Positions 23,988 to 60,298 of a DNA stretch of 64,000 nt are shown here, one piece after another. Position 1 is the stretch's first letter, and each line of letters starts with the position of its first letter. The position numbers and the translations under genes are program-made. Under the pieces are notes generated by a model. That model was not told where the DNA came from. It did not search any database and worked only from the letters and a program-made list of their open reading frames with translations. Origin of the DNA: Nitratireductor luteus (GTDB lineage: Bacteria; Pseudomonadota; Alphaproteobacteria; Rhizobiales; Rhizobiaceae); contig NZ_JAOANW010000005.1 in assembly GCF_026162365.1 (NCBI RefSeq), positions 248,001-312,000 on the forward strand. Direction: 5' to 3'.

Positions 23988-25091
23988 CTACGTATTGAAC
24001 TTGAACAGCATCACGTCGCCATCGCTGACGACATATTCCTTGCCCTCGTCGCGCGCCTTGCCGGCATCGCGCGCGGCGACTTCGCCGCCCAGCGACACGA
24101 AGTCGTCAAAGGCGATCGTCTGCGCCCGGATGAAGCCGCGTTCGAAATCGGTGTGGATGACGCCGGCCGCCTGCGGGGCTTTCGCCCCCTTGGTGACCGT
24201 CCATGCACGGGTTTCCTTCGGGCCCGCCGTGAAGAAGGTAATGAGGTCCAGAAGTTCGTAGCCCGCCCGGATCAGTCGGTTGAGTCCTGGCTCTTCGAGT
24301 CCCATGGCTTCCAGATATTCGGCCGCCTCGGCATCGGGGAGTTGGGAAACCTCGGCCTCGATGGCGGCTGAAATGACGACGGTGCCAGCGCCTTGCGCCG
24401 CGGCCATCTCTTCCACGCGTTTGCTCTGGGCGTTGCCGTCAGCCGCGTCCTCTTCGGCCACGTTGCAGACATAAAGCACCGGCTTCGATGTCAAGAGGTT
24501 GAGACTGCGCAGGATATTGAGGTCTTCGGCGGCGATGCCGTCCAAGAGCAGGCGCGCCGGTTTGCCCTCCTGCAGCAGTGTCAGCGCCTGCTCCATCATC
24601 GGCAGAAGGGTGGCGGCCTCCTTGTCCTTGCCGGTGGCGCGCTTGCGCATCTGGGTCGTGCGCCGCTCGAGGCTTTCGAGGTCGGCAAGCATCAGCTCCG
24701 TTTCCACGGTCTCGGCGTCGGCCACGGGGTCGATGCGGCCTTCCACATGGGTGATGTCGTCGTCCTCGAAGCAGCGCAGCACGTGGACGATGGCGTCGAC
24801 TTCACGGATATTGGCAAGAAACTGGTTGCCCAGCCCTTCGCCCTTGGACGCCCCGCGCACCAGACCGGCAATGTCGACGAAGGAAATGCGCGTCGGTATG
24901 ATCTCCTTCGAGCCGGCGACACCTGCAATCTTCTTCAGGCGCGGGTCGGGCACGGCCACCTCGCCGGTATTGGGCTCGATGGTGCAAAAGGGATAGTTGG
25001 CCGCCTGCGCGGCCGCCGTCCGGGTGAGAGCGTTGAACAGCGTCGATTTGCCGACATTGGGCAGGCCGACAATGCCGCATTTGAAACCCAT
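23988..25091 (-). CDS. ychF: redox-regulated ATPase YchF
   Basis: A 367-residue Obg-family P-loop protein that favours ATP. G1 is GLPNVGKST, followed by NYPFCTIEPN, the G3 DIAGLVRG, the ATPase-specific YVCNVAE that replaces NKxD, and a C-terminal TGS-type domain (ITFFTAGPKETRAWTVTKG). It binds ribosomes and affects translation and oxidative stress. Downstream of pth on the same strand, now separated by a palindromic element whose end supplies AGAGG 8 nt before the ATG. Confidence 0.95.
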   Translation of the reverse strand: MGFKCGIVGLPNVGKSTLFNALTRTAAAQAANYPFCTIEPNTGEVAVPDPRLKKIAGVAGSKEIIPTRISFVDIAGLVRGASKGEGLGNQFLANIREVDAIVHVLRCFEDDDITHVEGRIDPVADAETVETELMLADLESLERRTTQMRKRATGKDKEAATLLPMMEQALTLLQEGKPARLLLDGIAAEDLNILRSLNLLTSKPVLYVCNVAEEDAADGNAQSKRVEEMAAAQGAGTVVISAAIEAEVSQLPDAEAAEYLEAMGLEEPGLNRLIRAGYELLDLITFFTAGPKETRAWTVTKGAKAPQAAGVIHTDFERGFIRAQTIAFDDFVSLGGEVAARDAGKARDEGKEYVVSDGDVMLFKFNT

Positions 25092-25093
25092 AT

Positions 25094-25363
25094 CTAGTAC
25101 CTCTGCACAGGGATTTTGACTGTTTGACCGGCTTGTCGTGTCTGCTGGCAAGGCGTGGTCCGCGCCGTGGTCCAAGCGACCACAAGCGGGGCACAACGAT
25201 GTCCAGCAGACACGACAAGCCGGCCCTTCGGGTGGGACATAATCGTCCATCGGCGGCGTTGCGCCGCTTGGCCGTATGCCCCATACGCCCGGCGGGACGC
25301 GCCTGGCCGAGTGAACGATTCTGTCTCCATCAAACAATCAAAATCCCTGTGCAGAGGTACTAG
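25094..25363. mobile_element. MITE-like element with nested inverted repeats
   Basis: Long inverted repeats of 34 bp (25094-25127 and 25330-25363, one mismatch) bound this stretch. The outermost bases are CTA on the left and TAG on the right, as expected if an element inserted at the TA of a CTAG site and duplicated TA. Within it lies a second, perfect 21-bp inverted repeat (25128-25148 and 25203-25223). There is no transposase frame. Insertion at CTAG with TA duplication is the preference reported for IS630-family transposases, so this looks like a non-autonomous derivative of such an element. It lies exactly between the pth stop and the ychF start. Confidence 0.8.
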
Positions 25364-26076
25364 TCCTTCTTGCCGAGGATCTTCTTGAGCATGGCCGCCA
25401 TCGGTCCGTCCTCGGGGACCTGCGGTGCAATGTGTTTCGGCCGCGCCTGTCGGATATGGCTTTGGCCCCCGGCGGTCTTGGGCGCGCGTGCGGCCGGTTT
25501 GTCTTCCTTACCCTTCACGGCAAGGCTCGCCTTGTTCATGAAGCCGTTGTCGTCGCCCTTTGCCAGCATGCCGGCATTGTCGGCGATGGCCTCCAGCAGC
25601 GGGTCCAGCCAATCGTGATCCGACTTGGCAAAGTCGCCCAGCACATGACCGTTCACGCGCGCCTTGTCGCCCGGATGGCCGATGCCGATGCGCACGCGCC
25701 GATAATCCTTGCCGCAATGAGCATCGATGGATTTGATGCCGTTGTGGCCGCCGGCCCCGCCGCCGGTCTTGATGCGCAGCTTTCCAGGCGCCAGATCCAG
25801 TTCGTCGTAAAAGACGATCAGGTCGGCCAGGGTCAGCTTGTAGAAGCGCAAGGCTTCGCCGATGGCCTGGCCGGACAGGTTCATGAAGGTCTGCGGCTTG
25901 ATGAGCAGCACCTTTTCACCGTCCAGCTTGCCGTCAGCCACAAGGGCGGAAAACTTTCTCGACCACGGCGAAAAGGAATGGCGGCGGTGTATCGCATCCG
26001 CCGCCATGAAACCGACATTGTGCCGGTGGTTTTCGTATTGCCGGCCCGGATTTCCGAGCCCTGCAATGAGAAGCAT
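25360..26076 (-). CDS. pth: peptidyl-tRNA hydrolase
   Basis: A 238-residue enzyme that frees tRNAs from stalled peptidyl-tRNA. Catalytic and conserved parts are [21 protein letters not shown] (catalytic His), [38 protein letters not shown] and RVRIGIGHP. About 45 residues beyond the catalytic core form a basic tail ending LKKILGKKD. Its TAG stop is part of the CTAG target of the inserted element, and remains intact. The tail codons AAG AAG GAC contain AAGAAGGA, the likely original ribosome-binding site of ychF. Confidence 0.95.
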
Positions 26077-59077: not shown

Positions 59078-60298
59078 ATGAAGATTGCTGTACTGGGCGG
59101 TGACGGTTTCGTCGGCTGGCCGACTTCGCTGCATCTTTCGGCCGAAGGGCACGAGGTGCACATCGTCGATAATCTGTCGCGGCGGTGGATCGATACGGAG
59201 CTCGGCGTGCAATCGCTGACGCCGATGGATTCCATCCAGGAGCGCACCCGCATCTGGCACAAGGAAACCGGGCGGCGCATCCGTTTCCACCTCATCGACC
59301 TTGCCCGCGACTACGACGTCCTCAAGGCATGGCTCGCCGAGCACCGGCCGGACGCCATCGTCCATTTCGCCGAACAGCGCGCCGCGCCCTATTCGATGAA
59401 GAGCGACCGGCACAAGAACTACACCGTCAACAACAACGTCAACGCCACGCACAACCTGCTCAATGCGATGGTGGAGATCGGCCTCGACGCGCATCTGGTG
59501 CATCTGGGTACCATGGGCGTCTACGGCTATTCCTCGGTGGGCGCGGCCATTCCCGAGGGTTATCTGCCGGTGGGCGTGGAGACGCTGTCGGGCGAGACGG
59601 CGACCCAGGAGATCCTCTACCCGGCCAATCCGGGCTCCATCTACCACATGACCAAATGCCTGGATCAGCTCCTGTTCCAGTTCTATGCCAAGAATGACGG
59701 CCTGCGCATCACCGATCTGCATCAGGGCATTGTCTGGGGCACCCATACGCGGGAGACGCGGCTGCACGACCAGCTCATCAACCGTTTCGACTATGACGGC
59801 GACTATGGCACGGTGCTCAACCGCTTTCTCATCCAGGCGGCCATCGGCTACCCGCTCACCGTGCACGGGACCGGCGGGCAGACGCGCGCGTTCATCCATA
59901 TCCAGGATTCGGTGCGCTGCATCGAGCTGGCGCTGAAGACCGCGCCGCAGCGGGGCGACAAGGTCAAGATATTCAACCAGATGACCGAGACGCACCGGGT
60001 GCGCGACCTGGCCGAGCTGGTGGCGGGCATGACCGGCGGCCGGGTCGCCTATCTTCCCAATCCGCGCAAGGAAGCGGCGGAAAACGACCTCGTGGTCAGG
60101 AACGAGCAGTTCCTGGAACTCGGCCTCAACCCGACGACGTTGGCCGAGGGCCTGCTTGCCGAGGTGGTGGACGTTGCAAGGAAATATTCCTACCGCGTCG
60201 ACCGCAGCCGCATTCCTTCCGTCTCCGCCTGGACCAAGGACATTGCCTCCACCCTGGAACGCGATCCGGAAGGCAAGCGGCTGAAGAGCGTTTCCTGA
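59078..60298 (+). CDS. sqdB: UDP-sulfoquinovose synthase
   Basis: A 406-residue short-chain dehydrogenase-type enzyme that makes UDP-sulfoquinovose from UDP-glucose and sulfite, the first step of the sulfolipid SQDG. NAD-binding GGDGFVG at the N-terminus, LSRRWIDTELGVQSLTP, HFAEQRAAPYSMKS, LGTMGVYG and catalytic YHMTK agree closely with plant SQD1. Start 59078 (MKIAVLGGDG). First gene of an sqd cluster. SQDG substitutes for phospholipids when phosphate is scarce. Confidence 0.94.
   Translation: MKIAVLGGDGFVGWPTSLHLSAEGHEVHIVDNLSRRWIDTELGVQSLTPMDSIQERTRIWHKETGRRIRFHLIDLARDYDVLKAWLAEHRPDAIVHFAEQRAAPYSMKSDRHKNYTVNNNVNATHNLLNAMVEIGLDAHLVHLGTMGVYGYSSVGAAIPEGYLPVGVETLSGETATQEILYPANPGSIYHMTKCLDQLLFQFYAKNDGLRITDLHQGIVWGTHTRETRLHDQLINRFDYDGDYGTVLNRFLIQAAIGYPLTVHGTGGQTRAFIHIQDSVRCIELALKTAPQRGDKVKIFNQMTETHRVRDLAELVAGMTGGRVAYLPNPRKEAAENDLVVRNEQFLELGLNPTTLAEGLLAEVVDVARKYSYRVDRSRIPSVSAWTKDIASTLERDPEGKRLKSVS

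Follow-up and report, generated by a model that had tools for sequence, protein, structure and literature searches.

The junction between pth and ychF in the window, the 64,000-nucleotide stretch of DNA analysed here, contains a 264-bp palindromic element that, judged from the sequence comparisons below, is a MITE of the IS630 type, a known kind of element. Taking the evidence jointly, we consider it very probable that this is a MITE mobilised by an IS630 transposase into a CTAG at the pth stop codon; in this explanation its ends would earlier have been exchanged and ychF would now be coupled to pth. The parts of this explanation visible in the sequences are the insertion itself, its borders, its IS630-type ends, and a core of two hairpin modules that has other ends elsewhere. 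For a broader interpretation we regard the evidence as evenly balanced: a class-wide mobile family may keep the two-hairpin core as its lasting unit and change its 31-bp ends across IS630 transposases, one member having coupled ychF to pth. The usual view of a MITE is that of a decayed copy of a single transposon, with ends that match it. What appears to be new here is the two-module core, its spread through the class and the different ends on sister elements. With a conserved interior and varying ends, one can directly test whether ends are exchanged and what the core does.

The gene for the 238-aa peptidyl-tRNA hydrolase, pth (25,360–26,076, minus strand; Pfam PF01195), is followed by that for the GTPase YchF (23,988–25,091, minus strand, assigned by its ORF frame and Pfam PF06071 and PF01926). 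On the minus strand the order is the intact pth TAG (25,362–25,360) within a CTAG, the insert, a second CTAG, and then AT and the ychF ATG, which starts at 25,091. The inserted element (25,097–25,360, minus strand) lies between two TA copies, one at 25,361–25,362 in the CTAG on the pth side (25,360–25,363), which includes the stop codon, and one at 25,095–25,096 in the CTAG on the ychF side (25,094–25,097). Repeat analysis agreed with the earlier note on both sets of inverted repeats, namely the terminal pair of 34 nt including the CTAG (25,094–25,127 and 25,330–25,363; 97% complementary) and a perfect inner pair of 21 nt (25,128–25,148 and 25,203–25,223). A 22-nt end was found at just these two places in the window with up to three mismatches allowed, where 100 shuffles gave an expectation of 0. 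The RNA fold of 270 nt had an energy of −187.5 kcal/mol (z = −16.2 against 200 shuffles). The longest ORFs wholly contained in the element region were of 79 aa, and the element has no transposase gene of its own.

To examine the junction in relatives, YchF was searched for in 41 genomes including the host and was present in 40. The junctions of the host and of the 29 relatives' loci among the matches listed were compared, the start region being readable in 28 of the relatives (not in L063). Of the genomes searched, the one of the same genus whose YchF is most similar (G202, 96% identity) has AAGAAGGACTAGATATGGG, which is letter for letter the ancestral junction that the earlier note had predicted. 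When the window flanks were joined at a single CTAG, 192 of 204 bases were identical to G202 in a gap-free alignment. The other 27 relatives with readable upstream DNA had different junctions. Because G202 holds the empty site and the joined flanks align without gaps, the element is, on this comparison, a genuine insertion into CTAG that is flanked by TA and keeps the TAG stop, as had been proposed. With a single CTAG at the empty site and CTAG...CTAG at the occupied one, a 4-bp duplication of CTAG would look identical to a TA duplication at this one site; the GAGC-ended relatives described below favour TA over CTAG as the duplicated target. The copy in the window and the preserved empty site in a relative together form a clean natural experiment on a long intergenic palindrome, which poses the question of whether such a palindrome is neutral, damaging, or ties the translation of the second gene to that of the first.

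The assignment to IS630, which the earlier note had based on the CTAG target, was borne out by the two 31-bp terminal repeats (25,097–25,127, plus strand; 25,330–25,360, minus strand). A scan of named genomes with the end pattern identified eight stretches, one of which, from Mesorhizobium waimense (L034), leads into a transposase gene of the IS630 type that is truncated; the other end of this truncated copy was not found. The transposase fragment matched 135 plasmid records, including 31 from Bradyrhizobium and 30 from Rhizobium. Seven IS630 loci were examined after this plasmid search, and paired ends adjoining the transposase were identified in six of them (not in L043) and also in L220. 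The resulting group (L041, L042, L044–L047 and L220) consists of copies of 1.45–1.5 kb on alphaproteobacterial plasmids, and the transposase of L041 has a DDE_3 domain (Pfam). All seven copies of this end type with identified ends have a CTAG target. Since the scans for IS630 ends require TA, the presence of TA in them is no independent evidence. Over 25 positions, three ends (two from the window, one from L038) were identical to 11 IS630 ends, listed by hand, at a mean of 19.6 positions and a best of 21. Shuffled window-type ends gave a mean of 6.4 and a largest value of 15 against the same group, and the window-type ends themselves were at chance level (6.4) against the second, GAGC-type IS630 group. 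In addition, the inner TGACTGTTTGA of the window's terminal repeat recurs at the corresponding position of one end in the Acidisoma copy (L044). Ends of the window type were also present on a 107-bp element with another interior in an Acetobacteraceae MAG (L038) and on elements of ~400 bp with an unrelated interior at four Mesorhizobium loci (L032, L033, L036 and L037). None of these small elements contained the hairpin module described below. As a side observation, IS630 copies of this end type (L041–L046 and L220) mostly have a small divergent winged-helix gene with a MarR-like annotation; that of L042, the one tested, matched a LexA DNA-binding domain above the Pfam cut-off.

The earlier note had proposed searching the genome for further copies and for a transposase with the same ends; IS630 copies with matching ends exist elsewhere, but none was found in the host genome (G000; 4.92 Mb in 45 contigs, 99.94% complete). 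No second copy of the window's ends occurred there with up to three mismatches, and the best relative of the L034 transposase fragment had 27% identity over 74 residues. A resident IS630 was rejected as the mover after the host loci examined (L188, L198 and L210) were found to be without the window's ends. Based on the lack of a matching-end transposase in the host, either the element was brought in or its partner was lost. The element is thus short, gene-less and TA-flanked, with ends matching IS630, in keeping with a MITE. These ends are present as a single copy in the host, and the sister elements sharing the core are multi-copy in other genomes.

The interior of the element consists of two hairpin modules of ~102 nt arranged head to head, as identified with R1, a covariance model built from 15 copies of the first module. 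This module, H1 (25,231–25,333, minus strand; 101.8 bits), was among the training sequences, and H2 (25,124–25,225, plus strand; 55.6 bits, E 2.2e-11) was outside them; the first 4 nt of each overlap a terminal repeat. One of the two modules has the inner 21-bp palindrome as its base. The earlier description of a MITE-like palindrome was correct in that the element is a palindromic MITE, but it overlooked that the core has two modules and is spread through the class, and that sister elements have different ends. A census of 123 sources, in which the first alignment comprised the best 150 of 189 matches, gave 187 non-overlapping modules in 120 loci. Modules less than 60 nt apart were head to head in 61 of 62 cases, and 173 of the 187 modules were 101–104 nt long. 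Each forms one long hairpin interrupted by internal loops, and conserved unpaired letters recur over many families. Pairing was found in 93.9% of the cells of the R1 alignment, and 22 of 37 pairs had changes on both sides, compared with 10.5 in shuffles that ignore relatedness (none of 500 as high). These data show a maintained hairpin, for which a function as RNA is possible. Paired changes are no proof of an RNA role because palindromic DNA can self-correct its arms. The window had no match in Rfam 15 at gathering thresholds. A known RNA family was also rejected for eight loci searched at E ≤ 1, which gave three microRNA matches below the cut-off that we took as chance palindromes. A weak module-like match (E 0.25) was noted elsewhere in the window at 59,089–59,190.

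In a BLAST search with the element, 13 of 199 genomes of the family, the host counted, had a match, in several a weak one; the match in G155 covers the end repeat only, and the better matches have the interior in common with different ends. By the model, modules were present in 7 of 16 genomes of the genus (E ≤ 0.01), 43 of 199 of the family (E ≤ 1e-4) and 40 of 385 of the class (E ≤ 1e-5), the last from 28 family codes including that of the host. A module without an Rfam 15 match where tested, yet present in 40 of 385 genomes of its class, matters for annotation. Phage or plasmid spread of the core was considered and set aside: phages searched with the window element gave no match, and in plasmids the window element and L008 each matched one sequence in part, that of Agrobacterium sp. 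MA01, and L006 matched none. The MA01 plasmid has one module pair. No second element combining the window's ends with this core was found, the seven loci of the end-pattern scan tested (all but L039) having no module. An origin of the core in IS630 subterminal DNA was likewise rejected, with no modules in 21 loci that have the ends or IS630 copies. The other module-bearing element of the host (L005, 1,478–1,579, on contig C42) has ends of the TACCAAGGACCATGG kind, and its second module is too diverged for R1 to detect.

The ends of 61 dimers were compared, of which 58 had both flanks available and 46 had flanks alike at 22 or more of 31 positions. Four classes of ends were distinguished: GAGC-type, ATACCAAG-type, one GCGCGC-type (L227) and the window's own; two of these have a matching IS630 partner group and two further classes are unmatched, the ATACCAAG ends resembling neither IS630 group. 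TA was exactly 31 nt outside both sides in only 18 of the 46 sister dimers (49 of 92 sides), and was mostly missing at this distance in ATACCAAG-ended copies and in copies with a shifted register. The GAGC-type ends match the second IS630 group, of ~1.05 kb and from the same genus, which includes the host copy L210: their mean identity was 14.3 of 25 positions to this group, against 6.6 to the other group and 6.3 for shuffled ends. The GAGC-ended IS630 copies were 8 of 19 scanned loci, picked by their ends (L189, L190, L193, L194, L200, L201, L208 and L210; L189 and L208 are near-identical and from one genome). A 37-nt query of the GAGC-type end had no match in plasmids. In a tree of 47 cores without their ends, the window core was placed among the GAGC-ended cores with support of 93/82; the tree rests on ~200 columns, the window branch is long and the bootstrap is unsettled. 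On this placement, a single core would seem to have acquired ends belonging to different transposases. We infer one exchange of ends as the simplest reading, possibly at TTTGA, which is common to the edge of the core and to some IS630 ends of the window's type. The core would earlier have had GAGC-type ends, the outer ~24 bp of which were swapped. The transposase of the matching IS630 group, absent from the host genome as searched, would then have moved the element, which would have entered the CTAG at the pth stop codon and left TA on both sides.

An alternative without exchange is that the terminal repeats drifted stepwise together with their own transposase, so that the window's ends would be diverged GAGC ends. 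Members of an end class mostly group together on the core tree, with two changes of class over 47 cores, as slow co-evolution would also give, and most end classes share the 31-nt register of the repeats. Against this, the window's ends agree with one IS630 group at 19.6 of 25 positions and with the GAGC-type group at the chance level of 6.4, and the 46 dimers compared included none with intermediate ends. We regard gradual drift as rather unlikely. An exchange of ends on a mobile core also has to be weighed against the module being primarily a functional RNA or DNA site kept by its hosts, such as a transcript-processing or protein-binding hairpin, with mobility secondary. The strict length, the strong paired changes and the conserved unpaired letters over many families would be expected of such a site. 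Its distribution is difficult to reconcile with this role: the host has two modules by R1 at E ≤ 0.01 (the window's and that of L005), other genomes have at least 20 and most sampled genomes have none, and the copy in the window is missing at the same site in G202. As the arms can also correct one another in DNA, the paired changes do not establish an RNA role. Host-kept function as the primary role appears improbable.

Membership in an alphaproteobacterial repeat family that has already been described (Bru-RS, CIR or RIME) seemed to us similarly improbable. S. meliloti pSymB, which we take to bear RIMEs, had no module match at E ≤ 0.01. The palindromic Bru-RS1 and Bru-RS2 units of Brucella, at 103–106 bp, are close in length to the 102-nt module and come from the same class; IS630-type ends and head-to-head pairs are unmentioned in the portions of the reports available to us, and the comparison with these units is one of description (PMC2267715, PMC10800456). 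The CIRs of Caulobacter are hairpin repeats of ~110 bp spread over the alphaproteobacteria, but the available part of their description gives them two arms, a linker and an exposed, conserved loop GANTC, treats them as only partly MITE-like and records no MITE-like terminal repeats, whereas the module is a single long hairpin without a conserved loop GANTC (PMC2229807). Outside the class, RUP of Streptococcus pneumoniae is likewise small and gene-less, with IS630-like ends, a TA target and a hairpin transcript, and is mobilised by IS630-Spn1 (PMC2229807). RUP differs in being 107 bp long with one set of ends, where the window element is 264 bp long with two head-to-head modules and has sisters with the ends of another IS630 group. 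Correia elements (NEMIS) of Neisseria share the MITE character, TA ends and a long stem, and differ in length (~107 or 155 bp), sequence and genus; a two-module core is unmentioned in the same portion of that source (PMC2229807). The matching IS630 group (L041 and others) shares the 31-bp ends and the CTAG target with the window element, and differs in encoding a transposase and in having no module matches in the copies tested, which were six of these seven plus L043, together with L220. No description recognised as this element was found in the available portions of the open-licence literature.

The insertion also altered the region from which ychF would be translated. The terminal repeat provides a candidate ribosome-binding site, GAGGT (25,099–25,103, minus strand), 7 nt 5' of the ATG; the earlier note had placed the site correctly within the terminal repeat as AGAGG at 8 nt, and GAGGT at 7 nt is the better reading. 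With a 16S tail sequence that we assumed from general knowledge, the duplex at this site had an energy of −7.2 kcal/mol, compared with −6.4 at the empty site and −2.5 to −6.3 in 19 relatives. The proposal that the insert supplied a replacement site was thus upheld in part, the pairing being about equally strong, but in the fold this site lies hidden in the stem where the two ends of the element pair, with an unpaired probability of 0.0002 in the folded message. Coupling was explored in RNA folds for which a ribosome footprint was assumed. If a ribosome at the pth stop covers the next 6 to 18 nucleotides, the unpaired probability would rise to 0.58–0.62; it was 0.002 with the stop alone masked and 0.47 at the empty site. 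Since GAGGT is hidden in the stem, it should work only behind a ribosome finishing pth. In the pth-ychF message the element would loop out as a long stem with stop and start side by side, a ribosome ending pth would melt the foot of this stem and free GAGGT, and ychF would become dependent on the translation of pth. The keeping of the pth stop, and the bringing together of stop and start by the stem, may be why the insert was tolerated.

It could instead be that the insert merely lowers ychF expression, the stem hiding the start region or being cut by an RNase, and that there is no useful coupling. We consider this a substantial possibility that falls somewhat short of an even chance. The very low accessibility of GAGGT in the full fold would agree with it, as would the finding of no promoter-like or terminator-like site in 24,900–25,900. 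It is countered by the computation in which a ribosome assumed at the pth stop frees the site to ~0.6, against 0.47 at the empty site, and translational coupling is the reading that we prefer.

Two features of the ychF region were noted in addition. The ychF frame is open through most of the element (23,988–25,337 of the window, minus strand; TTG at 25,337; 449 codons), and automatic annotation may therefore start ychF too early. Many loci of the same genus (L050–L065) have a conserved GCTTGAC(G) upstream of ychF that is promoter-like by eye. This motif is missing in the window and in G202, where pth directly adjoins ychF, and their lineage may have lost a ychF promoter.

A further observation concerned GANTC, the methylation site of CcrM (PMC2229807). 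It was present at position 21 or 22 from TA in exactly one end of all 15 IS630 copies with identified ends (eight GAGC-type and seven window-type). Among 19 strictly typed GAGC-ended dimers, GANTC was at position 21 in one arm only in 13, in both arms in none and in neither in six, and the arms differed at position 24, the T of GANTC, in 16. The window's own ends are without GANTC. Transposition of IS10 is tied to methylation at Dam sites. By analogy, a CcrM site in only one end suggests that transposition of the GANTC-bearing IS630 copies and dimers may be controlled by methylation.
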